DNA of 54,753 nt from a virus: the IMG/VR virus record IMGVR_UViG_3300009176_000011, positions 1 to 54,753 of that record, one strand, 5' to 3'. Shown in pieces: positions 984 through 31,636 of the stretch. Under the pieces are notes generated by a model. It made no database searches, was not told the origin of the DNA, and was given only the letters and a program-made list of their open reading frames with translations. Position numbers and translations under genes: made by a program. Numbering within the stretch: the first letter of the stretch is position 1; each line of letters begins with the position of its first letter.

Positions 984-2819
984 ATGGCCTTTCTCGGATC
1001 GTCGCTGAACACCGCCGTATCTGGCACGGGTGCGAACGGGTCGATACCACGCGACCCTGCCACGTGGGCGCTGCAGGATGCGCAGGCGGCGGTCCAGGCG
1101 TCGTACCCTACCCAATACGATCAGGTGGCGGCGCAGTCGGTCAAGGACTACGTTCAGGGCCTACACTATCAGGATGCACGTCCTTGGATGGGCGCAGGGT
1201 ACGACACCGCCGGCAACCTAGCGGACACCAGTAAGACAATCATCGCTCGACAACTGGCCCCCGTACCAGAGATGTTCGCGTGCCTGGAGCGTCGCGTGGA
1301 AGGTGCGTGCGGCATTCAGGCTGCGATCTCAATCAAGCCCGCAGAGCCGGACGGGGAAGAGAACGAGCAAGGTGAGCGCGAACCGGGCAAGGAGCAGCGG
1401 GCGTACGCGAAGCAGTGGAGAGCGGACCTGTCTGCTTGGATCGACCGCTCCGGTGCGTGGGGAGGTAAGGACATCCGCAAGCCCACGGGCGTGCGTGGCA
1501 TGGTCGCGCTCGCGAGTCAGAGCCAGAGCGGTAGCGCGTGCCTCAGGCTATTCTACAACCCCGCTGCACGCACGCAGACGGTCACGCGCCGGGACGGTTC
1601 CGTTGAGCAGCGCATCCCCAAGCAGGCAGACCGCCGCGCGGCCCTGAAGCACGTGCACATCGTCGCGCCCCCGCCGGAGCGCTGCGCGGTCTACATCGAC
1701 CCCGACACGCACGAAAAGACGGGCGTGTTCCTCTTCTCCGAGAACCAGCAAGAGTGCGCTGAGGTCTGGTTTGCAAGGGGGGACAAGACGGTACTCCGGC
1801 GCATCGTCTCGGCATCTCCCGGAACGCCAGACAGCGATCCTGAGCAGGTTTTCCCGTGGGGCGGATGGATACCCATCCAACAGGCGGACATCGGGTGCTT
1901 GCTGACGGATGCGGTGCGACGGTTGCAAGGCGCGGTAGACTTCGGGGGAACTGCGCTTGTTCGCCTGCTTCAGTCGATGGCTTGGGGCCAGCGCACGGAG
2001 ATCGACGCTGAGGACGATGGGTACTGGAGCACCACACCAGACGCGGAGATCGTCAATCAGCGCACCCGCCTTAACGCTTCCGAGGTACTTGAGTACTTCA
2101 AGCCCCTGCCGGCAGGGTTGGGACCTGAGATCGTCCGCAGGCTAGTAGGATACGAATACTCCACCGGAACCACCAAGGACGGTCCGACGTTCGGTCGCAC
2201 GTCGCCCTCCGTGCACTACCACGAACCGTCAGACCCCGAAGGGCTCATCAAGGGGATAGACGCTTTCACGATGTTGATCCGGTACGCGTGCCACCAGGGC
2301 CACATCCGGAGCGGGCTGCTGGGTAGTTCTGCGGAGGCTAGCGGCGAGGCATACGAACAGGCGCGCGCAGCATTCGGAGCGGATATCAACGGTGTAGGGG
2401 AGTGCACGGACGGTGTGTTTGCCCCGACTCTCACCACGGCCACGATCATGGCCGATTGGCTGACTGGGGACGATGACCCGGCTGTTTTCGCGGACGAATG
2501 GACCGTGGAGAGCCAGTCGCATCCGAACGCTGGTTCGCCCTCTACCGAAACGCAGCGGAGCACTCTGGAGATGGTGGACGGTGAACTGCTGTCGCCTGAC
2601 GAGGGCACCGCTAGGCTGAACGTGCAGGACGTGGGGGCTGAACGCGCACGGATCTCACAATCGCGCAGTTTGGACCGCGTGACGAAGTTGGTAGCCGCAG
2701 CCGCAAGCGCCGCTTCTGCAGGCTTGAACGTGCGCAAGGTGCTGCTAGAGGCAGGAGTAAGCGAGAAGGAAGCGGACGAATGGGTCCAGAGCGACGGACT
2801 GCCCAACGTGGAGCAGTGA
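984..2819 (+). CDS. Portal protein
   Basis: A 611-residue protein directly after the large terminase and before head-morphogenesis genes, the standard portal position. It would form the dodecameric ring at the capsid vertex through which DNA passes. The sequence is globular without membrane segments; the central region (roughly residues 200-480) and the helical C-terminus are consistent with a large SPP1 gp6/DUF4055-type portal, but I recognise it mainly by size and position. ATG at 984 is chosen because it is the first start after the 909-937 promoter. A C-terminal acidic tail (EADEWVQSDG) is seen. Confidence 0.75.
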   Translation: MAFLGSSLNTAVSGTGANGSIPRDPATWALQDAQAAVQASYPTQYDQVAAQSVKDYVQGLHYQDARPWMGAGYDTAGNLADTSKTIIARQLAPVPEMFACLERRVEGACGIQAAISIKPAEPDGEENEQGEREPGKEQRAYAKQWRADLSAWIDRSGAWGGKDIRKPTGVRGMVALASQSQSGSACLRLFYNPAARTQTVTRRDGSVEQRIPKQADRRAALKHVHIVAPPPERCAVYIDPDTHEKTGVFLFSENQQECAEVWFARGDKTVLRRIVSASPGTPDSDPEQVFPWGGWIPIQQADIGCLLTDAVRRLQGAVDFGGTALVRLLQSMAWGQRTEIDAEDDGYWSTTPDAEIVNQRTRLNASEVLEYFKPLPAGLGPEIVRRLVGYEYSTGTTKDGPTFGRTSPSVHYHEPSDPEGLIKGIDAFTMLIRYACHQGHIRSGLLGSSAEASGEAYEQARAAFGADINGVGECTDGVFAPTLTTATIMADWLTGDDDPAVFADEWTVESQSHPNAGSPSTETQRSTLEMVDGELLSPDEGTARLNVQDVGAERARISQSRSLDRVTKLVAAAASAASAGLNVRKVLLEAGVSEKEADEWVQSDGLPNVEQ

Positions 2820-5497: not shown

Positions 5498-5733
5498 CGT
5501 GGCTTGGCTTGTTGCCGCCCGGCCTTGTGCACAATTTGGACGCCATCGTGCACGCCAGCGACCCGAGTGCGGTTGCATTGGAGTGCGCTCGGTTAGATCC
5601 GGATCACCTCCAACTGTACGCGCTTTTGGCGAGTGCGACACTGGATCACCGGTCCAAATCCGATGCGTTGTCCGCCGTGGAGCGGATTCGTCGTGCGCGC
5701 AGGGCGCTGGACAAGCTGAAGCCAGATGGCTAG
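5494..5733 (+). CDS. Hypothetical protein
   Basis: A 79-residue, mostly helical protein overlapping the upstream HTH gene (ATGA) and the downstream head gene by 8 nt. Rich in Ala, Asp and Leu, with a basic C-terminal helix (VERIRRARRALDKLK). Possibly a small head or packaging accessory; unknown. Confidence 0.55.
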   Translation: MTWLGLLPPGLVHNLDAIVHASDPSAVALECARLDPDHLQLYALLASATLDHRSKSDALSAVERIRRARRALDKLKPDG

Positions 5734-6355
5734 CCCTCCACGCGCGTTCACCTTCGACCGTCGCCTAGGCCGCTACCGCGACGCTGCCACGGGACGGCTC
5801 ATCCCTGCGGCGCAGGTCCGTGCCTACCTGGACGAAGCGCTTGTATCCGCCGGCAAACGGATGGACTCGCTCGCGAACCAGCTCCGCGCTGGACAGATTG
5901 ACCTCATCTCGTGGGAAGTGAGGATGCGCCGCGAGGTCAAGATCGTCGCCACGTACAGCGGGGCCGCGGCGAAAGGTGGCTGGGCGCAAATGACCGAAGC
6001 GGATTACGGACGAGTCGGGCGGTACGGTCAGGATCAGTACCGGTTCCTGCGCGGCTTCATGCGAGACATAGAGACGGGCAAGCAACCGTTGAACGGGCTG
6101 GTCAATGCTCGCGCTCAGATGTACGCGCAAGCTGGCAGGCCCTTGTATCACCGGATGGAGATCGCAGAGCAGCGGGTGCGAGGGATGCGGCTCCGCAAGT
6201 CAGTGCGCCACGCACGCGACTCCTGCGCAGGGTGCATCGCTGCTGAGGCCGCAGGGTGGATAGACATCGACTCAACAGCAGTGCCAGAGATCGGGGCGCG
6301 CGAATGCCGTACCCGGTGCAAGTGTTCGTGGCTCTATAAGGCAGCGGAGATATGA
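5726..6355 (+). CDS. MuF/SPP1 gp7-like minor head protein
   Basis: A 209-residue protein whose C-terminal third carries the cysteine pattern of phage head-morphogenesis (MuF-like) proteins: HARDSCAGCIA, then GWIDID...PEIGARE, then CRTRCKCSW near residues 195-203. Its N-terminal two-thirds is helical. In SPP1 and Mu the family is made next to the portal and packaged with the capsid in a few copies. Gene order (terminase, portal, MuF, scaffold, capsid) agrees. Confidence 0.75.
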   Translation: MASPPRAFTFDRRLGRYRDAATGRLIPAAQVRAYLDEALVSAGKRMDSLANQLRAGQIDLISWEVRMRREVKIVATYSGAAAKGGWAQMTEADYGRVGRYGQDQYRFLRGFMRDIETGKQPLNGLVNARAQMYAQAGRPLYHRMEIAEQRVRGMRLRKSVRHARDSCAGCIAAEAAGWIDIDSTAVPEIGARECRTRCKCSWLYKAAEI

Positions 6356-6603
6356 TACCCAAGTCGTCCACTACCCCGCAGGAAATCCGGCAGGCTATTC
6401 TAGACTCACCGTGTTCGTGGTGCGGGCGCAGGATAGGAGATCACGACGTGTTCCGCCTGCCGCCCACGGCTCACCCGATGCGCGACTTGGGCGCCGCAAT
6501 CCTGGACACGCCGCTAGGCCGCGCCTTTGACCGTCTGGCGGTGTGGACGCTTGACGGCCTCACAAATGCAGTGGACGCTTTCACAAGGTGGCTACAGAGA
6601 TGA
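6352..6603 (+). CDS. Hypothetical protein
   Basis: An 83-residue protein overlapping the MuF-like gene by four bases (ATGA). It contains a CSWCGRR pair and an amphipathic C-terminal helix (RLAVWTLDGLTNAVDAFTRWLQ). The stop leads straight into the Shine-Dalgarno of the RiPP-precursor-like gene at 6615. Function unknown. Confidence 0.55.
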   Translation: MIPKSSTTPQEIRQAILDSPCSWCGRRIGDHDVFRLPPTAHPMRDLGAAILDTPLGRAFDRLAVWTLDGLTNAVDAFTRWLQR

Positions 6604-6614
6604 AAGGAAACGAA

Positions 6615-6863
6615 GTGATTCGCAAACTGAGGTTGGACGTTGAAGCGATGGAGGTGGAATCGTTCGTCATGGGACCGGCCGGCGGAGACGGTACGGTCAA
6701 GGCTTACACGGGGGACGCCTGTATTGAGGACGCGCCGTCAATCGCGACCTGCTACGGCATGGGATCGTGCCCCAAGTCGGCGTGCGGCCAGACATGCGGC
6801 GTCACGATGGTCAATACCTGTCTATCGTGCACGTGCTGGGCTACGGGGTGTCCGCAGTGCTGA
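6615..6863 (+). CDS. RiPP (pinensin-like lanthipeptide) precursor homologue 4
   Basis: An 82-residue Cys-rich peptide. Start GTG 6615 follows AAAGGAAA and gives the leader MIRKLRLDVEAMEVESF, matching the leaders of three minus-strand genes at 27.8-29.3 kb. A GDGTVKAY segment corresponds to the GTVRG element of the others. The core has nine Cys with many Ser/Thr (CYGMGSCPKSACGQTCG..., CLSCTCWATGCPQC). Such (R)KL-L-L-VESF leaders are typical of pinensin-family precursors, which are exported after modification. No lanthipeptide enzyme or transporter is in the phage. It sits alone within the head operon, 20 kb from its paralogues. Confidence 0.75.
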   Translation: MIRKLRLDVEAMEVESFVMGPAGGDGTVKAYTGDACIEDAPSIATCYGMGSCPKSACGQTCGVTMVNTCLSCTCWATGCPQC

Positions 6864-6889
6864 GCGGTGCGCCGTAAGTCCTGCCGCTC

Positions 6890-6918
6890 TTGACGCTGGG
6901 ACGGCTGGCGCGTATAGT
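6890..6918 (+). promoter_or_regulatory. Sigma70-like promoter inside head module
   Basis: TTGACG at 6890-6895, 17-nt spacer, TATAGT at 6913-6918. Six bases later comes ATG 6925, so the expected start point coincides with a start codon. It would transcribe the tRNA-like region and then the scaffold and capsid genes. Confidence 0.7.
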
Positions 6919-6924
6919 GCACGT

Positions 6925-6996
6925 ATGAACGAAAGTGGCCTGCGAACCAGCGTATCTGAGGGAGAGATCCCCACGCTGCGACACGGAACGCGCTAG
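6925..6996 (+). CDS. Possible leaderless 23-residue peptide
   Basis: ATG 6925 lies exactly at the predicted transcription start of the 6890-6918 promoter. It opens a 23-codon frame (MNESGLRTSVSEGEIPTLRHGTR). The same geometry (-10, six or seven bases, start codon) precedes clear genes at 24613, 31403 and 51232. It overlaps a tRNA-like element, so either reading could be the functional one. Confidence 0.3.
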   Translation: MNESGLRTSVSEGEIPTLRHGTR

Positions 6997-7027
6997 GGAG
7001 CGCAGGGCGGTTCGATTCCGCCGCAGG
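6939..7027 (+). ncRNA. Atypical tRNA-like element A
   Basis: Closing stem CCTGC (6939-6943) with GCAGG (7023-7027); a canonical T-arm (GGCGG, TTCGATT, CCGCC at 7006-7022); and a long variable-arm-like hairpin (GCGCT/AGCGC) before it. The D-arm and anticodon arm do not fold canonically and no anticodon can be read. It may be a degenerate tRNA or a structured leader RNA. Confidence 0.35.
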
Positions 7028-7041
7028 ATGACGGCAAAGTT

Positions 7042-7142
7042 TCAGCGGCAGTGCTCGGAACCGGGACACAGCATCCGCAAAGCAGTGAGCGGATGGAGCC
7101 AACCGCAAGGCGCTCTTGAGGGTTCGAATCCCTCCCCGCTGA
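7042..7142 (+). ncRNA. Atypical tRNA-like element B
   Basis: Seven-bp closing stem TCAGCGG (7042-7048) with CCGCTGA (7136-7142), a perfect T-arm (GAGGG, TTCGAAT, CCCTC at 7118-7134), a D-stem-like TGCT/AGCA, a TCCGC/GCGGA stem where the anticodon stem should be, and a long variable arm. The central loop is ten bases instead of seven, and an extra C sits between T-stem and acceptor. It resembles a class II tRNA that is not canonical. Confidence 0.4.
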
Positions 7143-7146
7143 ATGA

Positions 7147-7199
7147 CTAGATCCTAGGGTCTGCAGCCCGAACGGCGCTCTCCGGGCGCTTGGATCTAG
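7147..7199 (+). other. Inverted repeat with nested stem
   Basis: CTAGATCC (7147-7154) pairs with GGATCTAG (7192-7199), and inside it GCCCG pairs with CGGGC. It immediately follows tRNA-like element B and could be a processing or regulatory structure; there is no T-tract of a simple terminator. Confidence 0.45.
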
Positions 7200-7230
7200 G
7201 TAGGAGACACCGGAGACGGCTTACACGGAT

Positions 7231-7269
7231 ACGGCCCCACCTTCGCCACTGCGCGAGGGGCGGGGCCGT
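7231..7269 (+). terminator. Strong GC-rich hairpin upstream of scaffold gene
   Basis: ACGGCCCC (7231-7238) and GGGGCCGT (7262-7269) form an 8-bp stem, with an inner TCGC/GCGA stem. It is followed by TTGTCG, a poor T-tract. Possibly a partial terminator or attenuator ahead of the capsid genes. The rest of 7143-7395 holds no gene. Confidence 0.4.
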
Positions 7270-7395
7270 TGTCGCGTTCAGGGCCGGTTCCAAGTGTGTC
7301 GAACTGCGGTATCCACGGCGAGCGGCACGGACCGCTCCCAACCCTCCTCACGTGATGCGCACGGTCGCATCCCGCTTCCGCACGGACGGAACTAC

Positions 7396-8091
7396 ATGGC
7401 TCGTGAACTGTCGCCCGCAGAAGAGGTGGCCTATTCGCGCTACCTGGGATTCGGCACTCCAGATGAGGTCGCCAAGATCCTCGCGGAGAACGCCAGCCTG
7501 AAGAGCGAGAACGCAGACCGCCGCCAGAAGCTTAAGGACGCCGAGGCGGAACTGGCGAAGGCGAAGCCTCCTGAGGGTGCGGTGTTGCTGGCGGGCGACG
7601 ACGCGAAGAAGCACGCCGCGTTCGTGGCGCTGGGGATGGAGCCGGACGCGCTGTGCAAGCTCAAAGAGGAGCGCGACACGCTGGCGGCGAAGGATGCCAC
7701 GCGCACCCGGCAGGACGCGTTCGCGAGCGCTGTAAGGGCTCTCAAGTGGCCGGAAGATACCGTGGCTACCCTTCTCGACATGAACAGCCTGAACGGCGCG
7801 ACTGTCGAGATGAAGACGGAGAAGGTCACGGGGAAGGACGGCAAGCAGGTAGATGAACAAGTGCCCTACGTGACGCTCGCGGGCGAGGGACAGAAGCAGC
7901 AGAAGTTCGCTGAGTTCGCCGCCGCAGCACCGCAGTTGAAGGGCATTCGCACCGAGTCTGGCGGGACTGCGTTCGGCGGAGACGGGCGGAGCGCACCGGA
8001 GCAGCGTGGGCACCCGGGCGGCGCCACGGTCAAGACGGATGAGGATTTCCGGAAGGCTACGGCAGGAACGGCGAGTTACGATACCTTCTGA
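7396..8091 (+). CDS. Capsid scaffolding protein
   Basis: A 231-residue, highly charged, helical protein. Residues about 25-60 (EVAKILAENASLKSENADRRQKLKDAEAELAK, split by heptad spacing) look like a coiled coil, and the C-terminus is Gly-rich and basic-acidic mixed, as in phage scaffolds. It directly precedes the decoration and major capsid genes. ATG 7396 follows GGACGGAA. It would guide procapsid assembly and be lost or cleaved before packaging. Confidence 0.75.
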   Translation: MARELSPAEEVAYSRYLGFGTPDEVAKILAENASLKSENADRRQKLKDAEAELAKAKPPEGAVLLAGDDAKKHAAFVALGMEPDALCKLKEERDTLAAKDATRTRQDAFASAVRALKWPEDTVATLLDMNSLNGATVEMKTEKVTGKDGKQVDEQVPYVTLAGEGQKQQKFAEFAAAAPQLKGIRTESGGTAFGGDGRSAPEQRGHPGGATVKTDEDFRKATAGTASYDTF

Positions 8092-25438: not shown

Positions 25439-25724
25439 GAAGTGAGTCCTTGCCGGAGCATGCGCCCGGTTCAGACCCAAGCGGCGGGAGAGGCAGTCGG
25501 GCAGACGCGGGGATTTACCGTCCCGCCGTCCTCAGCTTGCACCACCTTCGCTACGTGGTTGCCGTACTCCACCCTGATCCCGCTACGGCTCCGGGGGCGA
25601 AGGCACTCCGCTGCTCTGCGGCGACGGTCGCACTTCGCAAGGTTAGGTGGGAGAGCCACTATCTCCCCGAAAGGAGACCTGAACAGCACGGGCTTCCGCC
25701 CGCGTGTATGGCTTCACCACCTAG

Positions 25725-25795
25725 AGCCACTGAGGAGATTCGAACTCCTAACCGTCACCTTGGAAGGGTGCCGCGCTACATTGCGCTACAGTGGC
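25725..25795 (-). tRNA. tRNA-Gly(TCC)
   Basis: Acceptor GCCACTG/CAGTGGC, D-arm GCGC/GCGC, anticodon loop CTTCCAA with TCC at 34-36, T-arm AGGAG-TTCGAAT-CTCCT. No encoded CCA. Discriminator T. Last gene of the array. Confidence 0.9.
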
Positions 25796-25798
25796 ACA

Positions 25799-25870
25799 TC
25801 GGGTTGCGAGGAATCGAACCTCGTCACTCCTGCTCCCAAAGCAGGCGCCCAACCATTAGGCTACAACCCG
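25799..25870 (-). tRNA. tRNA-Pro(TGG)
   Basis: Acceptor CGGGTTG/CAACCCG, anticodon stem CCTGC/GCAGG with loop TTTGGGA (TGG), T-arm CGAGG-TTCGATT-CCTCG, discriminator A. Confidence 0.93.
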
Positions 25871-25875
25871 TCCAG

Positions 25876-25948
25876 TGGACCCCGTCAGATTTGAACTAAC
25901 GACCCTCCGCTTGCAGGGCGGATGCTCTACCAACTGAGCTAGGGGCCC
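25876..25948 (-). tRNA. tRNA-Ala(TGC)
   Basis: Acceptor GGGCCCC/GGGGTCC, D-arm GCTC/GAGC, anticodon stem TCCGC/GCGGA with loop CCTGCAA. Anticodon TGC; position 33 is C rather than the near-universal T, an oddity. T-arm GTTAG-TTCAAAT-CTGAC. The acceptor lacks an obvious G3-U70 pair. Confidence 0.85.
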
Positions 25949-25979
25949 ATTCGGGGCTAATATCCTCACCTTCTGCCGC

Positions 25980-26040
25980 GGTGACAAGCCGGGCTCCAGA
26001 TCGGGGTTCACCCCCGGTTCGCCATTCAGCAGGAGTCACC
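25980..26040. other. Structured spacer inside tRNA array
   Basis: GGTGAC (25980-25985) pairs with GTCACC (26035-26040), enclosing a CCGGG/CCCGG and a GGGG/CCCC hairpin. It fills the only large gap (about 115 bases) in the tRNA array and is close to tRNA length, but has no T-arm. Possibly a decayed tRNA. Confidence 0.3.
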
Positions 26041-26062
26041 CCGCCTATCCAGCGAACCTTAT

Positions 26063-26133
26063 AGCGCCGTGCGGATTCGAACCGCAACCAACCGGCTCCA
26101 AAGGCCGGCGTCCTGCCAATTAGACGACGGCGC
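26063..26133 (-). tRNA. tRNA-Gln(TTG)
   Basis: Acceptor GCGCCGT/ACGGCGC, anticodon stem CCGGC/GCCGG with loop CTTTGGA (TTG), T-arm TGCGG-TTCGAAT-CCGCA. Confidence 0.9.
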
Positions 26134-26135
26134 AG

Positions 26136-26224
26136 AGGAAGGTAGAGGATTCGAACCTCTGCGGGAGATCCCTCCCGGCTATCGGTTAGCAACCGAACGC
26201 CTTGCCAGACTCGGCCAACCTTCC
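26136..26224 (-). tRNA. tRNA-Ser(GCT)
   Basis: Class II tRNA of 89 bases: acceptor GGAAGGT/ACCTTCC, anticodon stem TTCGG/CCGAT with loop TTGCTAA (GCT), long variable arm, T-arm AGAGG-TTCGAAT-CCTCT. Confidence 0.92.
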
Positions 26225-26229
26225 GTCAG

Positions 26230-26303
26230 TAGTGGCGGCGGGATTTGAACCCGCGATCTTCGCCTTGAAAGGGCGACGGCTTAAGCCGCTTGCCTACGCC
26301 ACC
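26230..26303 (-). tRNA. tRNA-Glu(TTC)
   Basis: Acceptor GGTGGCG/CGCCACT with a terminal G-T pair, anticodon stem TCGCC/GGCGA with loop CTTTCAA (TTC), T-arm GCGGG-TTCAAAT-CCCGC, discriminator A. Confidence 0.9.
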
Positions 26304-26310
26304 TCACCAG

Positions 26311-26383
26311 TGCCCCGAGGAGGATTCGAACCCCCGTCTTCGGGATAGAAGCCCGCTATCCTGCTCCGTTGGACGATCAGGGC
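26311..26383 (-). tRNA. tRNA-Arg(TCT)
   Basis: Acceptor GCCCTGA/TCGGGGC, anticodon stem GCGGG/CCCGA with loop CTTCTAT (TCT), T-arm GGGGG-TTCGAAT-CCTCC. Reads AGA/AGG, rare codons in a GC-rich host. Confidence 0.9.
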
Positions 26384-26385
26384 GA

Positions 26386-26459
26386 TAGTCCGCCTTGGGT
26401 TTGAACCAAGGACCTCTCGTGTATAAGACGAGCGCTCTAACCGTCTGAGCTAGCGGACT
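26386..26459 (-). tRNA. tRNA-Ile(TAT)
   Basis: Acceptor AGTCCGC/GCGGACT, D-arm GCTC/GAGC, anticodon stem CTCGT/ACGAG with loop CTTATAC (TAT), T-arm CTTGG-TTCAAAC-CCAAG. It reads AUA with a genomic TAT anticodon instead of the usual lysidine-modified CAT. Confidence 0.9.
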
Positions 26460-26462
26460 GCA

Positions 26463-26535
26463 TGGTCCGTGCTGGCTTCGAACCAGCGCGCGTCCGCTTA
26501 AAAGGCGGCTGCTCTGCCTGCTGAGCTAACGGACC
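26463..26535 (-). tRNA. tRNA-Lys(TTT)
   Basis: Acceptor GGTCCGT/ACGGACC, D-arm GCTC/GAGC, anticodon loop CTTTTAA (TTT), T-arm GCTGG-TTCGAAG-CCAGC, discriminator A. Confidence 0.93.
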
Positions 26536-26549
26536 CGGCCTTGCAAAGG

Positions 26550-26636
26550 TGCTCGCGGGAGGAATCGAACCTCCATGGGGCATCACCCCCAGCCGGGTTT
26601 AAACCGACCGCGTCTCGCCGCTTTCGCCACGCGAGC
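26550..26636 (-). tRNA. tRNA-Leu(TAA)
   Basis: Class II tRNA, 87 bases: acceptor GCTCGCG/CGCGAGC, anticodon stem GTCGG/CCGGC with loop TTTAAAC (TAA), long variable arm (CTGGGGG...CCCC region), T-arm GGAGG-TTCGATT-CCTCC, discriminator A. Confidence 0.92.
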
Positions 26637-26639
26637 ATA

Positions 26640-26713
26640 TACCCTAGGAGGGATTCGAACCCCCACTGCCCTGATCCTAAGTCAGGTGACTCCTACCGTT
26701 GGTCTACTAGGGC
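26640..26713 (-). tRNA. Class I tRNA with TAG anticodon (nominally Leu)
   Basis: Acceptor GCCCTAG/CTAGGGT, anticodon stem CCTGA/TCAGG with loop CTTAGGA, anticodon TAG (codon CUA). The variable region is only five bases (GCAGT), unlike bacterial tRNA-Leu, which is class II; compare the class II tRNA-Leu(TAA) beside it. T-arm GGGGG-TTCGAAT-CCCTC. The amino acid it carries cannot be settled from sequence. Confidence 0.85.
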
Positions 26714-26718
26714 CCAAA

Positions 26719-26791
26719 TACCAAGAGAGAGATTCGAACTCTCAACATCCCGATCTTGAATCGGGCGCCTCTACCGTTGGGCTATCTTGGC
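26719..26791 (-). tRNA. Class I tRNA with CAA anticodon (nominally Leu)
   Basis: Acceptor GCCAAGA/TCTTGGT, D-arm GCC/GGC, anticodon stem CCCGA/TCGGG with loop TTCAAGA, anticodon CAA (codon UUG). Variable region ATGTT is short, so again not a normal class II tRNA-Leu; the body looks more like tRNA-Gln. T-arm GAGAG-TTCGAAT-CTCTC, discriminator A. Confidence 0.85.
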
Positions 26792-26795
26792 ACAG

Positions 26796-26882
26796 AGGGA
26801 GCGATGGGATTCGAACCCATGGAGCCTTGCGGCCCTCCAGTTTTCAAGACTGGCGCAATCGTCCGGACTCTGCCACACTCCC
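26796..26882 (-). tRNA. tRNA-Ser(TGA)
   Basis: Class II, 87 bases: acceptor GGGAGTG/CGCTCCC, anticodon stem CCAGT/ACTGG with loop CTTGAAA (TGA), long variable arm, T-arm ATGGG-TTCGAAT-CCCAT. First tRNA of the array. Confidence 0.93.
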
Positions 26883-26892
26883 GCCGACAATT

Positions 26893-27123
26893 CTACCCGC
26901 GCGGCGGTCTATCTGCAAGCCTCACCTCTCGCGGATACCCAGCACGAACGAGCAACTGGTGTGCAATCCACGACTCCGGAGAGCCGTAGATGTTCGCGAT
27001 CTCCTGGTGCGGGATGAAAGAGCCCCCAGGAACGCCGTGGACGAAGAACGCCAGCCCGGCAGGCGTCACGGTAGCACTGGCCCCTACGTTCGACGGCGAG
27101 CGTCGTTCTTCGCGCGTGTACAT
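26893..27123 (-). CDS. Hypothetical protein
   Basis: A 76-residue protein between the HNH gene (40-nt overlap) and the tRNAs. GLAFFVHGVPGGSFIPHQEIANIYGSPESW and LVRAGYPREVRL resemble a small DNA- or protein-binding fold. A GTG 18 codons later could be the true start. No family recognised. Confidence 0.5.
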   Translation of the reverse strand: MYTREERRSPSNVGASATVTPAGLAFFVHGVPGGSFIPHQEIANIYGSPESWIAHQLLVRAGYPREVRLADRPPRG

Positions 27124-27584
27124 GGCTTCCTCACGGGTTCAGGCAGAGACCAGCCGGAGCGTTCGAAGAAAAACAGGCCGTCGTCTGGATTGCACACCTC
27201 GCGATACTCTGCCAAGGTCATATTCCTCTTGCTCTCGTTACACTCCGCGCACGCGACGACCTTGACGGTTGCATCTCCTTTGCCGCCCCGGCTCCGAGGT
27301 GTGACGTGGTCCCGGGTGCGCAGGTTGGGGGGATGCGACGTACCGCTCTCCCGCCAGTCCGCCAGCAACCCCGGGACCTGTCCGGCGGGAACCGTCTGTA
27401 TCCCACAGTACCAGCACAGCCGCCTCTTATCTGAGCCGCAGTCATCCCCTCGCATTTTCTTGAAGGGGGGCAGAGGGACCGAAGGCGGCACCACGGGCAC
27501 GATCAACGCGCCATCCATCGGCGGCACGTAATCCATCTTCACGCGGGGGATCTTAGAACTGCGCCGCTTCATCGGGTGGCCCAT
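27084..27584 (-). CDS. HNH endonuclease
   Basis: A 166-residue protein with an HNH core: CWYCG (first zinc Cys pair, about res 57), TRDHVTPRSRGGKGD (His-general base with the N and H region), then VVACAECNESKRNMTLAEYREV with the second Cys pair and catalytic Asn. This matches McrA/His-Me-finger nucleases, often free-standing homing or packaging nucleases in phages. An internal ATG at 27572 is an alternative start. Next to the tRNA array, a frequent spot for homing nucleases. Confidence 0.88.
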   Translation of the reverse strand: MGHPMKRRSSKIPRVKMDYVPPMDGALIVPVVPPSVPLPPFKKMRGDDCGSDKRRLCWYCGIQTVPAGQVPGLLADWRESGTSHPPNLRTRDHVTPRSRGGKGDATVKVVACAECNESKRNMTLAEYREVCNPDDGLFFFERSGWSLPEPVRKPCTRAKNDARRRT

Positions 27585-27610
27585 GGCCGATTCGAGTTGA
27601 GGTTACCTGC

Positions 27611-27757
27611 GTGGCGGATCAGGGAGACAGCCGGGGAGTGTCGGGTCTCAACCCAGCTTCACGGAACGAAAGATACCAAGGCGATCTCCCGACCGCCCAG
27701 GAACGAGGAGGATTTCCGCTCGTTATCCCGTGGCTACGCGGCTACCTGACCCGCCAC
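27611..27757 (-). ncRNA. Stem-closed structured RNA candidate (147 nt)
   Basis: GTGGCGGATCAGG (27611-27623) is complementary to CCTGACCCGCCAC (27745-27757) over 13 positions. The one imperfect pair is G-U if read on the minus strand and A-C on the plus strand, pointing to a minus-strand RNA. Inside are AACGAG/CTCGTT, GGCG/CGCC, GGGT/ACCC and GACA/TGTC helices. It lies between the HNH gene and a RiPP-precursor-like gene. Could be a riboregulator or a non-coding RNA. Confidence 0.5.
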
Positions 27758-27764
27758 CAGTGAG

Positions 27765-28112
27765 TTAGATGCTGTTGCAGTTGGCCGAACCGTTGCACGC
27801 GCTCTGCCAGCAGTTCGTCTGCAAGGTGTGTCCGGGGCAACCGGCGTATTGCACGCAGGTCATAACTCCGGTGTTGCACCAGTCCCACCCGGAGTTGTCA
27901 ATTCCGCCGCCGCAACCGAAGCGATTCGGGTCAAGCGAATTGCCGTTCTGCACACAGAACGCAGCGCACGTACTACCGTCGTTGGCGCAGGTATGCCCGC
28001 CGATAGTCGCATCGTCCACCCGGCCGCGGACAGTTCCCCCAGCGTAGTGGGCGGCGTCAATATCGAACGACACCACCTCCAGCGCCTCGATCTCCAGCTT
28101 GAGTTTACGCAT
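27765..28112 (-). CDS. RiPP (pinensin-like) precursor homologue 1
   Basis: A 115-residue protein with a very strong Shine-Dalgarno (AAAGGAGG). Leader MRKLKLEIEALEVVSFDID, a GTVRGRV element near residue 27, then a Cys/Gly/Asn-rich core of ten Cys (CANDGSTCAAFC, CNTGVMTCVQYAGC, CWQSACNGSANC). Leader pattern agrees with three other genes here and with pinensin-family precursors. No LanB/LanC/LanM, protease or ABC exporter is in the phage, so host enzymes would be needed for modification. Confidence 0.75.
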   Translation of the reverse strand: MRKLKLEIEALEVVSFDIDAAHYAGGTVRGRVDDATIGGHTCANDGSTCAAFCVQNGNSLDPNRFGCGGGIDNSGWDWCNTGVMTCVQYAGCPGHTLQTNCWQSACNGSANCNSI

Positions 28113-28177
28113 TTTTGCAGCCTCCTTTGGGCTTTTGCGCTTAGTGGCGCCACGTAAGGTATCGGGGCCGGCGCCTT

Positions 28178-28402
28178 TCACCCCTTGTTCCGTAGCCAGC
28201 AGTGTCCGCGCCAATCCTCGCAGGGACCGTCGTGTCTAGGAGCCAGGAGGCAAACGCTACCCGGGTAATCTCCGGAGAGCGCAGCACATGTTGGCGAGCG
28301 AGGGTGGGCGGCGCGGTCTGCCTCGGTCCATTGATCCATCTCCTCCAATGAGCCACGCCCGTTCGCCAAGTCGATGACCAGCACGTCTAGTGAAACACTC
28401 AT
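28178..28402 (-). CDS. Hypothetical protein within RiPP-like cluster
   Basis: A 74-residue protein with AAAGGAGA eight bases before ATG 28402. It contains LDVLVIDLANGRGSLEEMDQW and a C-terminal CALSGDYPGSVC...CEDWRGHCW-type stretch with several Cys, resembling the small Cys/His protein at 36329-36523 (both have a C...H...C-x-W pattern). Function unknown. Confidence 0.6.
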   Translation of the reverse strand: MSVSLDVLVIDLANGRGSLEEMDQWTEADRAAHPRSPTCAALSGDYPGSVCLLAPRHDGPCEDWRGHCWLRNKG

Positions 28403-28558
28403 CCGTGCATCTCCTTTTGTTGACTCCGTCGCGCGACGGTGCATGGTGAGGAGGCAGGACGTTGGGTTGCAACTACAGGCTTCGCATTCGCCGCGCCCCG
28501 ATACGGCGCCCTCACGTTCACGCTCTACCTGTCCAACGTCCTACCCGTCAGTTTGCGA

Positions 28559-28594
28559 CGCCGAGTGGTTTTCCAGCGGCAGGCCCACTCGGCG
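28559..28594. other. 10-bp hairpin
   Basis: CGCCGAGTGG (28559-28568) and CCACTCGGCG (28585-28594) with a 16-base loop, in the 321-base gap between 28402 and 28724. No T-tract either side. The rest of this gap has no gene I trust. Confidence 0.5.
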
Positions 28595-28642
28595 CCCGTG
28601 CGATCCAATCCCTGCCGGACAGACCGCACGCATTTCAGGTGT

Positions 28643-28715
28643 GGAGCCGGTGCGGGAAGAAAGGAGTTCCCCCAAACCGTGGCGGCCTGCTAGCCGTTCC
28701 GCCTACACCGGCTCC
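28643..28715. other. Stem-closed 73-base element
   Basis: GGAGCCGGTG (28643-28652) pairs perfectly with CACCGGCTCC (28706-28715). Inside lies a GGCGG/CCGCC hairpin. The length equals a tRNA, but no T-arm or anticodon arm is seen. Adjacent to RiPP-like gene 2. Confidence 0.4.
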
Positions 28716-28723
28716 GCGAAATA

Positions 28724-28963
28724 TCAGTAACAGCCGTTGTTCGTCCCCATGCAGGCGTCCAGCCGGAAAGTACGGCAGTAGACCCCCGTGCAGACGGGGC
28801 ACGTCGCTCCGTTGTAGCACGTCGGCTGCGGGCCTTCGCTGTAGGGACACGGCGCAGGGCTCTCGATCGACGTACCCGCGTCCACGTAGGCCGTCACTCC
28901 CGCACGGGCGACGGGGAAGCTCTCTACCTGCAGCGCGTCGATGGCGAGTCGAAGCTTTTTCAT
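28724..28963 (-). CDS. RiPP (pinensin-like) precursor homologue 2
   Basis: A 79-residue peptide with leader MKKLRLAIDALQVESF, then PVARAGVTAYVDAG and a core of eight Cys (CPYSEGPQPTCYNGATCPVC, GVYC, DACMGTNNGCY). GGAGAGAG precedes the ATG. The shortest of the four paralogues and the one with the most diverged GTVRG element. Confidence 0.75.
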   Translation of the reverse strand: MKKLRLAIDALQVESFPVARAGVTAYVDAGTSIESPAPCPYSEGPQPTCYNGATCPVCTGVYCRTFRLDACMGTNNGCY

Positions 28964-28999
28964 CGGTCTCTCTCCGGGTGTGATTGGGGGGGGGGCGTG

Positions 29000-29299
29000 T
29001 CAGGGGCAGCACGGAGCCACCTCGTTCGTGGCGCTCGGGCATACCCGCTGGCACACGCTCTCGTACGGGCTATAGCAGGTCCACCAACACGTGTTGACGC
29101 AGGTGTACGGCTGGCGTGACGTGCCTTCGCCGTCTCCGCCGGAATCAGGGGAGTACTGGACGCAGAGGTTGCACGTATCGTTTACGCAGTACGTGACCCC
29201 CGACTGCTGCCCCCTTACGGTTCCGCGCGGGGTGGCCGTGACGCGCGTCTCGAACGACTCCACGGCCAGCTCTTCCAGGTCCAGCCTCAGCTTCCGCAT
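29000..29299 (-). CDS. RiPP (pinensin-like) precursor homologue 3
   Basis: A 99-residue peptide: leader MRKLRLDLEELAVESFETR, PRGTVRGQQ element, then eleven Cys including CVNDTCNLC, CVNTCWWTC, CQRVC and a terminal CCP. ATG 29299 follows AGAGGAG. The leader is the closest of the four to the pinensin-type consensus. The frame upstream is open but contains non-coding structure, so it is not included. Confidence 0.8.
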   Translation of the reverse strand: MRKLRLDLEELAVESFETRVTATPRGTVRGQQSGVTYCVNDTCNLCVQYSPDSGGDGEGTSRQPYTCVNTCWWTCYSPYESVCQRVCPSATNEVAPCCP

Positions 29300-29791
29300 G
29301 GTCAGCTCCTCTTGAGGTTTGGCTACACCGACTCCGTTTTGTTGCACAGAATGGTTGAGGCGTGCTGTTACGCCAAAGTCCGTCCGCATGCAGATGCCGC
29401 TTCTTACTCGGCAGCAAGTCTGACTGGCCTTCCGCCACACCGATCTGAGCGCCGATGTGAGGATCCGCCCACGGACTTGCACCGTGACTACCGGATGCCT
29501 CCGGCGTGCTGCTTACACCATGCGAATCACTCCACGCACCCGCGTTACAGACGCTCCCCACTAGATGCAGCGGCAAACTGCCTCGTGGAAGCGATTCGTC
29601 CGCCGCGTTCATACGTAGCGGGCGACCTGATGTCGGCTATCCCCGAAGGTGCTACCGGGGCCTGCGTTGCCGTTCGCCGCGTGGAACCAGGCTTTCGAAT
29701 TTTACGCAACCATGCCAAGCAGTCACAACCTCTCTTTGTTAACCCGGGGAGGAATTCCGGGCACGGGACGCACCGCGTATGCGCCTCAACT
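29300..29791. other. 490-base region without a confident gene
   Basis: Open frames on both strands here lack ribosome-binding sites and protein-like composition. It contains the tRNA-like fold at 29462-29528 and a CCCGG/CCGGG hairpin near 29750. It separates the RiPP-like genes from the upstream minus-strand genes and may hold 5' leader RNA. Confidence 0.4.
29462..29528 (-). other. tRNA-like four-stem element
   Basis: On the minus strand: GATTCGC (29522-29528) with GCGGATC (29462-29468), 7 bp; GTG/CAC D-like arm; CCGGA-GGCA-TCCGG hairpin; and CACGG-TGCAAGT-CCGTG T-like arm. The anticodon-position loop is only four bases, so it is not a functional tRNA by usual rules. Confidence 0.35.
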
Positions 29792-30046
29792 TCACCCGCC
29801 GTGCCGGGTGATTGCTACGTTTGGTGGCTGGCGTCCTGCTTTAGACGACGTGGGCACTAGGTCCGCACGGCAGGTCGCTACTCCTGCATCTCCAGCCGTC
29901 TCCCCGCCCCCCGTACGTCGCTTGCCCCCCATGTAGCTCCACTGGCGAGGCCGCAGACCCTTCCGGATGCGGCGCTTCTCGCGTGACACCGTGCGAGCGT
30001 TGCGGCGGGTGGACTTGGTGCCCTGCCGTCGCGATACCCTGCTCAC
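29792..30046 (-). CDS. Small basic protein
   Basis: An 84-residue Arg/Lys-rich protein: VSRVSRRQGTKSTRRNARTVSREKRRIRK, then GLRPRQWSYMGGKRRTGGG. GTG 30046 overlaps the upstream stop (GTGA). The charge suggests nucleic-acid binding. The last third may be non-conserved. Confidence 0.55.
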   Translation of the reverse strand: MSRVSRRQGTKSTRRNARTVSREKRRIRKGLRPRQWSYMGGKRRTGGGETAGDAGVATCRADLVPTSSKAGRQPPNVAITRHGG

Positions 30047-30363
30047 GCCGCCACCTTCTCGCGCAACCCAGCGATGGCACACTCTGCGGCGCCGGTGAAG
30101 TTGTCTCGGTCGAACAGGCGCGGATCGAACTCGTCTCCGCCGATATCCACCTTCATCACCCGACCACGCAGATAGTCGAAGTACAGGCGGTCGTTGGTCG
30201 TGAAGTTCTCGCCGCGTTCCGTCCCTGCAGCGTCGATGATCTCCCGGCACTCCTCCACCGACAGCGCTCCCTTATCGTGCACGAAGCTCATCCCCTGCGC
30301 ATGCGTGGCTGCGTGCAGCGCCGCGAGCACTTCGGCCTTGTCCAGCCCCTTGATGTCAACCAT
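30043..30363 (-). CDS. Hypothetical protein
   Basis: A 106-residue protein (VDIKGLDKAEVLAALHAATHAQGMSFV...). GGAGACGAG precedes ATG 30363. The segments GALSVEECREIIDA, YFDYLRGRVMKVDI and RLFDRDNFTGAA look like a small conserved phage protein with a compact alpha/beta fold. Function unknown. Confidence 0.65.
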   Translation of the reverse strand: MVDIKGLDKAEVLAALHAATHAQGMSFVHDKGALSVEECREIIDAAGTERGENFTTNDRLYFDYLRGRVMKVDIGGDEFDPRLFDRDNFTGAAECAIAGLREKVAA

Positions 30364-30399
30364 CTCTCGTCTCCATCTGGTTCAAGGTGTACCTACAGG

Positions 30400-30485
30400 G
30401 GTCGTACGGTGCCTTAAATTCGGTACCTCCGCTTAGTTGCTGAGGCTAAGGCTTCAACCGTTGCGCCGAAGCGCACCGTACGACC
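30400..30485. ncRNA. Stem-closed structured element 1 (86 nt)
   Basis: GGTCGTACGGTGC (30400-30412) pairs perfectly over 13 bp with GCACCGTACGACC (30473-30485). Inside are a GCGC-TTCG-GCGC tetraloop hairpin on the minus strand and a CTTAG/CTAAG hairpin. With 30494-30564 it fills the 286-base gap between 30363 and 30650. Confidence 0.5.
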
Positions 30486-30493
30486 TTCAGGGT

Positions 30494-30564
30494 GTGGGCA
30501 GGCCAACGCTGGCTCGTGGTCGGTCCGGTTCCGAGCGCACTACCGACAGTCGCCGCCTGCCCAC
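30494..30564. ncRNA. Stem-closed structured element 2 (71 nt)
   Basis: GTGGGCAGGC (30494-30503) pairs perfectly with GCCTGCCCAC (30555-30564). Inside are GCCA-ACGC-TGGC and TCGGT/ACCGA hairpins, so a three- or four-way junction is possible. tRNA-sized but without T-loop. Confidence 0.5.
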
Positions 30565-30649
30565 GTATTGAGCTACGGCCTACTTCCCTGTCTGTCGCGT
30601 CCTCTGCGGCTTGTCCTCACTCGATAGTATCTCCCTGTGCTGGGTGAGC

Positions 30650-30850
30650 CTACCAGTGTTCGCGGCGTGCGTCTACATCGCGCTGGTGCACGCGCTCTTC
30701 CACGGCTTCGCAAAACGCATCCTCCAGCCTCACTCGCATCTCATCCGACAGACTTAGCCCCCATGCTCCGAACGCGTCTGCGATCAGGTCCACGAACCGT
30801 TCAGTGGGGCTTCGCTGGCGCTGGAACTGCTCCTGACGTAGGGATTGCAT
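30650..30850 (-). CDS. Hypothetical protein (66 aa)
   Basis: A helical protein (FVDLIADAFGAWGLSLSDEMRVRLEDAFCEAVEERVHQRDV), start ATG 30850 three bases after the upstream stop. Function unknown; a small dimeric helical protein is likely. Confidence 0.6.
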   Translation of the reverse strand: MQSLRQEQFQRQRSPTERFVDLIADAFGAWGLSLSDEMRVRLEDAFCEAVEERVHQRDVDARREHW

Positions 30851-30853
30851 GGC

Positions 30854-31102
30854 TCAGTCCTCCAAAGTAAAGCCAAGCGCTTCGACTGCAGCACGCGGCG
30901 ACGCAAACTCCCTGGCGTGGATACCTTGCATCTGGTATCTGCCTTCCTCGTCACAGGCGACCCACGCCCCCTGACGGTAGACGACCGAAGCTCCGATCCG
31001 TTCTCCGTCCACCTTCCAGAGTGCGCGGTTGTCCACAAAGAACTGCCACCCGGGATTGCCGGCAGCGATCTCTTGCGCGGCGCGGGCATGGTCTGGCTTC
31101 AC
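30854..31102 (-). CDS. Hypothetical protein (82 aa)
   Basis: An 82-residue protein with WQFFVDNRALWKVDGERIGASVVYRQGAWVACDEEGRY (antiparallel strands) and a C-terminal helix SPRAAVEALGFTLED. Small phage proteins of this layout occur in several minus-strand operons here, e.g. 49709-49939. GTG/ATG choice: ATG 31102 has GAGACGAGAG upstream. Confidence 0.6.
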   Translation of the reverse strand: MKPDHARAAQEIAAGNPGWQFFVDNRALWKVDGERIGASVVYRQGAWVACDEEGRYQMQGIHAREFASPRAAVEALGFTLED

Positions 31103-31151
31103 TCTCGTCTCTCTGGTCTACTGGTGAACTGGGCGGTATGGGTCGTCAGGG

Positions 31152-31268
31152 TCACACTCGTTGAGTCTGCGTGCCCAGAAGTCGCGGGTAGCCGTCGCGG
31201 TACGCGGGAGTGCGGCTGGCGAACATCCGACCCTCGCGCCGCATTCTCGCCTGCTTCGACTCTGGCAT
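31152..31268 (-). CDS. Small basic peptide, first gene of operon
   Basis: ATG 31268 with GGAG eight bases upstream, 38 codons (MPESKQARMRREGRMFASRTPAYRDGY...). It is the first frame after the 31310-31338 promoter. An adjacent frame ending at 31118 (ARRLNECDPDDPYRPVHQ) looks equally protein-like, so a frameshift may split one longer gene. Confidence 0.4.
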   Translation of the reverse strand: MPESKQARMRREGRMFASRTPAYRDGYPRLLGTQTQRV

Positions 31269-31309
31269 CGTTCGCGCTCCGTTGGGGGTGAATCCGTTCC
31301 GACGCATCT

Positions 31310-31338
31310 AAGGTAAGACACCGCCCGATGGCTGTCAA
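31310..31338 (-). promoter_or_regulatory. Strong minus-strand promoter (accessory operon 2)
   Basis: Minus strand: CCCTTGACA (TTGACA at 31333-31338), 17-nt spacer, TACCTT (31310-31315). No strong promoter was seen further downstream, so it may drive 31.3 to 25.7 kb, including RiPP-like genes, HNH gene and tRNAs. Confidence 0.75.
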
Positions 31339-31366
31339 GGGTCTTTAAAGCGGGATTCCGAACCTC

Positions 31367-31395
31367 TTGCGCATCGCCGTGTGTTCGCTTAAGAT
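31367..31395 (+). promoter_or_regulatory. Promoter for leaderless HTH gene
   Basis: TTGCGC (31367-31372), 17-nt spacer, TAAGAT (31390-31395), then seven bases to ATG 31403. Divergent from the 31310-31338 promoter; the two -35 elements are 28 bases apart. Confidence 0.65.
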
Positions 31396-31402
31396 GCAGA
31401 CC

Positions 31403-31636
31403 ATGAACGTATCCACCTACCTGCGCCGCTACGGCCCGACGCTGGACGCGCTCGCGAAGGATGCGGGCCTGTCGCACCACTATGTACGCCACCTCGCGAG
31501 GCCGGTCAACGCCCGCTCGGCTGGACGCACAGCTCGCGTGCTCCTAGCGCGAGCATTCCGCATCCAGGCACAACGGTTGATCGCTGACGCCGACGCGCTG
31601 GACGCCATCCTAGAGGGGAAGGGACACCGTGACTGA
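31403..31636 (+). CDS. HTH regulator, probably leaderless
   Basis: A 77-residue protein with LDALAKDAGLSHHYVRHLARP (about res 14-34), a clear helix-turn-helix of the Cro/XRE type, then an Arg/Ala-rich helix and IADADALDAILEG. The start coincides with the predicted transcription start. First gene of the early plus-strand operon, opposite a strong minus-strand promoter it could repress. Confidence 0.7.
   Translation: MNVSTYLRRYGPTLDALAKDAGLSHHYVRHLARPVNARSAGRTARVLLARAFRIQAQRLIADADALDAILEGKGHRD

Follow-up and report, generated by a model that had tools for sequence, protein, structure and literature searches.

The window analysed here, a stretch of 54,753 nucleotides of viral DNA, is bounded by an exact terminal direct repeat of 123 bp, and its terminase gene spans the joint, so that the window represents a complete phage genome (G000). 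Besides the terminase, Pfam and PHROGs revealed genes for capsid, tape measure, tail completion, DnaB, a polymerase clamp, a ParB-like protein and a DNA methyltransferase. A portal-like gene (984 to 2819, plus strand) and a MuF-like head gene (5726 to 6355, plus strand) were named by inference from position and synteny.

Three short open reading frames on the minus strand, each with an ATG start and an upstream purine-rich ribosome site, encode Cys-rich peptides with very similar leaders. Precursor 1 (29000 to 29299, start at 29299) has 99 amino acids with the leader MRKLRLDLEELAVESFET..RGTVRG and a core containing 10 cysteines. Precursor 2 (28724 to 28963, start at 28963; 79 amino acids) combines the leader MKKLRLAIDALQVESF with a 7-Cys core and has no GTVRG element, and precursor 3 (27765 to 28112, start at 28112; 115 amino acids) possesses the leader MRKLKLEIEALEVVSF..GGTVRG and again 10 cysteines in the core. 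The cluster lies close to an array of 13 tRNA genes on the same strand (25724 to 26882). A first-pass annotation of the sequence had described three minus-strand genes with nearly identical leaders, two of them with GTVRG, and both the reading frames and the quoted leaders are present exactly where it had placed them. Its count was too low, however, since a fourth gene is found on the plus strand, in the head-gene region between the MuF-like and the scaffold-like gene (precursor 4, 6600 to 6863). It encodes 87 amino acids with IRKLRLDVEAMEVESF..DGTVKA and a 10-Cys core, and the core pattern ATCxGMGxCPKSxCG..TCLSC is common to other phage copies. A six-frame translation of the window contains the leader pattern at these four places and nowhere else, and 30 shuffles did not produce it once. 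Some leaders deviate, with VVSF or VELF. None of the window peptides matched Pfam, and a match of precursor 3 to NF007462 (17.5 vs. 118 bits) was discounted as chance.

The same annotation had called the peptides pinensin-like, with leaders typical of pinensin-family precursors. Precursor 1 aligns to positions 2-27 of the profile NF038180 and reaches 18.6 bits, below the curated cut-off of 24 bits, and the other three window peptides do not match this profile. The profile also matches 10 of 26 host precursors (enzyme-linked or from an array) at E 0.01, the first of them with 19.7 bits. Since the phage peptides and an enzyme-linked host precursor alike miss the cut-off, it is fair to call the peptides pinensin-like RiPP-type precursors with a similar leader, but not members of the pinensin family. 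Pinensin gene clusters, which belong to class I and to Bacteroidota, are reported to have a split LanB (PMC7268733), and the clusters of the putative hosts have one as well. In contrast, the phage genes lie in genomes that lack the enzymes.

A scan of genomes with the phage sequences gave matches in Gemmatimonadota only (three loci). Within the family of one of these bacteria, G037 (21 genomes), a profile built from the phage peptides found 3 to 115 precursors per genome in nine genomes. The N-terminal domain of LanB is present in all nine of them and in one of the twelve genomes without precursors (Fisher p 3.4e-5), and the precursor genomes have between one and three dehydratase genes, compared to up to 115 precursors. 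In an order-wide sample, strong precursor matches were restricted to 8 of 146 genomes, all from the family of G037, which is very likely, as we assume, Longimicrobiaceae. The suggested relationship to Longimicrobium-like bacteria is in line with our data.

The genes of the host loci, which have a G+C content of 70%, were called with a gene caller trained on positional G+C. The LanB loci comprise a split LanB (PF04738 and PF14028), LanC (PF05147), an ABC transporter, HlyD and an S8 protease beside precursors with the same leaders, so that bacterial homologues adjoining lanthipeptide enzymes, which had been named as a check on the first assignment, do exist. Among proteins of solved structure, a lantibiotic dehydratase domain protein (6ec7) is a relative of the host LanB. 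Many host precursors are solitary, for example amid the housekeeping genes around a prophage of the bacterium G004, and this implies that modification in trans already takes place in the host. A second type of LanB locus (L088, G262:C98) encodes peptides built of CSNCSDC-type repeats. At another locus (L095, G265:C206), 13 precursors are arranged in tandem beside genes for an ABC transporter, HlyD and an S8 protease, and neither LanB nor LanC was recognised within the 19 kb read.

We constructed a host-only HMM from 26 precursors of the LanB loci and one array and searched 11,664 viral ORFs with it. It recovered 11 intact phage precursors with E-values from 5e-8 to 6e-16, among them precursors 1 to 4 of the window (8.7e-16, 5.1e-8, 2.2e-11 and 1.6e-8, respectively), as well as one frameshifted copy (4e-11) and one with a stop codon inside the leader (0.0016). 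No unrelated viral frame was found among the 11,664 ORFs, the next best having an E-value of 0.37. The cores of phage and host peptides have nearly the same composition (Cys 15.4 and 16.7%, Thr 12.9 and 12.7%, Lys 0.4 and 0.4%, respectively), and threonine is in excess at positions -1 and -5 relative to cysteine in both (z 8.5 and 4.2 in phages, 14.2 and 13.0 in hosts). Two features of LanA peptides are therefore present, namely a leader common to the phage peptides and to precursors beside LanB and LanC, and a core in which Ser/Thr and Cys are abundant and not randomly spaced. A third one, LanB/LanC in the same cluster, is absent from the phages G000 to G003. The phage copies agree with the dispersed Gemmatimonadota precursors in leader, GTVrG element, core composition and Thr-Cys spacing, but they differ from these in sitting in head operons or in a tRNA block. 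The best reading is that the four window genes belong to this dispersed Gemmatimonadota family and specify lanthipeptide precursors of class I type, the products of which are predicted to be modified.

The precursors are not a peculiarity of one genome. Scans of IMG/VR identified three related phages, G001 (37 kb), G002 (51.6 kb, with a 123-bp repeat) and G003 (56.5 kb, with a 127-bp repeat), and a broader DNA-pattern scan of the same database revealed a fifth carrier, the 7-kb fragment L174. Altogether, the five phages including the window possess about 11 intact and two broken precursor genes. These recur at two places: between terminase and portal (in G001, twice in G002, up to three times in G003, and in L174) and between MuF and scaffold, where G003 has an intact counterpart of precursor 4 of G000, whereas the copy of G001 is frameshifted. 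One G003 copy carries the stop codon inside the leader. In a tree of 32 capsid proteins, the four carriers that could be placed (all except L174) form a single clade (support 98/92), with the capsids of G001 and G003 being identical over the stretch compared. What had been described as a cluster in a phage is hence rather a trait of a phage clade. No precursor was seen in the available stretches of 28 relatives outside this clade, many of which are partial, nor did the INPHARED phages yield a match. A single plasmid match (E 0.1) was rejected as chance.

Four of these phages lack the modification genes. Profiles of six host proteins covering LanB, LanC, ABC transporter, HlyD and S8 protease gave no match in the four records G000 to G003, three of them complete, whereas the host positive control was found, and the Pfam scan of the 83 window proteins did not detect lanthipeptide enzymes either. 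This agrees with the initial description of a phage without the enzymes. The four phages also have no tyrosine integrase family member, and serine integrases were covered by the Pfam scan of G000 only. A lytic life style of the carrier phages is likely. As to their host, the precursor-rich bacterium G004 carries a related prophage (L160 to L162, G004:C5:76000-113500; terminase 69 and 49% identity over two parts, tape measure 40%), and this relationship together with the confinement of the precursors within the sampled order points indirectly to the precursor-bearing family. The prophage itself contains no precursor; single host precursors flank it at 62072, 72445 and 116851. A terminase of approximately 50% identity is also present in G128, a member of the Gemmatimonadota outside that family. 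A search for CRISPR-like short matches yielded only tRNA-like, prophage-like and chance-level matches and no spacer. Judging from these similarities, the phage probably infects soil Gemmatimonadota.

We propose that the genes are orphan class I lanthipeptide precursors that would be matured in trans by host enzymes to give a phage-specified product, and we assign this reading a probability of roughly 0.55. The phage would contribute the substrates only. In an infected cell, the leader peptide (KLxLdldaLxVESF...GTVrG) would draw in the split LanB of the host, LanC would close the thioether rings, and a protease and an exporter of the host would finish the product, so that the host would be programmed to produce peptides whose sequence is specified by the phage. 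Precursor 4 and its counterparts may be expressed late, judging from their position next to terminase, portal and MuF-like genes. Most likely, the product would act as an inhibitor of competitors or of a co-infecting phage, or as an agent within the infected cell. Whether a whole clade of apparently lytic phages outsources its own lanthipeptides in this way, with viral substrates, a host assembly line and a product serving as weapon, exclusion factor or counter-defence, is in our opinion an evenly balanced question.

The conservation of leaders and cores bears on the main rival explanation. According to this, the peptides are decoys, by which the phage swamps LanB/LanC or the exporter of the host with substrates and thereby blocks defensive host lanthipeptides. 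This kind of counter-defence has to be taken seriously, since Streptomyces lanthipeptides with intracellular anti-phage action have been reported (reviewed in PMC12360287). Ocean data moreover show co-expression of anti-phage genes and families of RiPPs (PMC11118758). With one to three dehydratase genes for up to 115 host precursors, competition for the enzymes is plausible. In some phage pairs, leaders are better kept than cores (identity 0.60-0.68 vs. 0.31-0.35, core pN 0.48-0.49), as would be expected of decoys but also of diversifying products. However, a decoy needs only its leader, and in the gene of the MuF gap the core is more conserved between G000 and G003 than the leader (0.57 vs. 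0.45). The pN of this core (0.25) is also lower than its pS (0.71), with synonymous sites near saturation. In addition, the Thr/Cys spacing of the host peptides is preserved in the phage cores. At least one core thus appears to be kept for its own sequence, and it is probably the mature peptide and not the leader alone that is selected. We regard decoys as possible but considerably less probable than a phage-specified product.

It is improbable that the genes are passenger cargo, i.e. mobile host genes that were picked up and moved among hosts by phages without benefit to the latter. Such an origin could explain why copies occur close to tRNA arrays and within variable gaps, and host orphan precursors are single and lie amid housekeeping genes. 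The broken copies in G001 and G003 fit as well; together with the strong core variation in the other pairs, they indicate that individual genes are dispensable. Retention at recurring places nevertheless makes mere cargo less likely, as all four placed members of the clade carry the genes although their capsids are only 45-49% alike. Furthermore, the phage cores have no close match among the sampled host cores, so that no recent exchange is seen, and pN is well below pS in the one core mentioned above. Least credible of all, and very unlikely, is that the genes encode small Cys-rich proteins which stay unmodified, bind zinc or are rich in disulfides, may be minor components of the virion, and resemble RiPP precursors only outwardly: the head operon houses some copies, but their leaders fit the profile of peptides whose genes adjoin LanB/LanC, Pfam matches are lacking, histidine is scarce (11 in 761 residues), and CxxC spacing, which could have indicated the zinc sites that would speak against the first-pass annotation, is not in excess (12 vs. 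16 expected).

The proposed maturation in trans has parallels in known systems. In the case of the prochlorosins, which are class II lanthipeptides of cyanobacteria, one LanM serves many precursors. A few modifying enzymes likewise face many precursors in the putative hosts, but here the system is of class I with a split LanB and the precursors are also present on phages. Sublancin is a glycocin whose prophage SPbeta also supplies the genes for modification, export and immunity. The phages studied here share with SPbeta the possession of a RiPP-type peptide, but they carry precursors alone, lack tyrosine integrases and have no lanthipeptide modification and export genes as in a sublancin-type cassette. 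Besides the glycocin of SPbeta (PMC6391423), associations between RiPPs and phages have been described on the basis of co-expression (PMC11118758), and lanthipeptide clusters have been found near defence genes (PMC12715929). In the open-access literature, the coverage of which is incomplete, we found no description of phages that carry sets of precursors but lack the enzymes.

If the peptides are indeed modified, the phage would program a natural-product pathway of its host with substrates alone. This would offer a handle on the question why bacteria of this family maintain as many as about 100 precursors for one to three dehydratases, and a role in conflicts with phages would become testable. 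Viral genomes are also worth mining for precursors without enzymes, as enzyme-based mining is blind to such genes.

Some further observations concern the surroundings of the precursor genes. Upstream of the cluster, about 700 bases (29300 to 30040) have no convincing gene call. A promoter scan of positions 26900 to 31500 gave two overlapping weak -10/-35 matches (29728 to 29699), which were discarded with 0.7 expected, and Rfam revealed nothing convincing in the uncalled stretches 29290 to 30050 and 6860 to 7400. The anticodons of the 13 tRNA genes are mostly those for A-ending codons; the phage has a G+C content of 62.8% and the putative hosts have one near 70%. The gap after precursor 4 (6864 to 7395) is non-coding and contains two tRNA-like foldings, one of them (z -2.9) with an acceptor stem of 7 bp free of mismatches; neither ARAGORN nor Rfam called these foldings. 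The syntenic gap of G001 holds true genes for tRNA-Gly and tRNA-Thr. Within the same gap of the window, the non-coding sequence at approximately 7147 to 7290, upstream of the scaffold gene, is well conserved in G000, G001 and G003.
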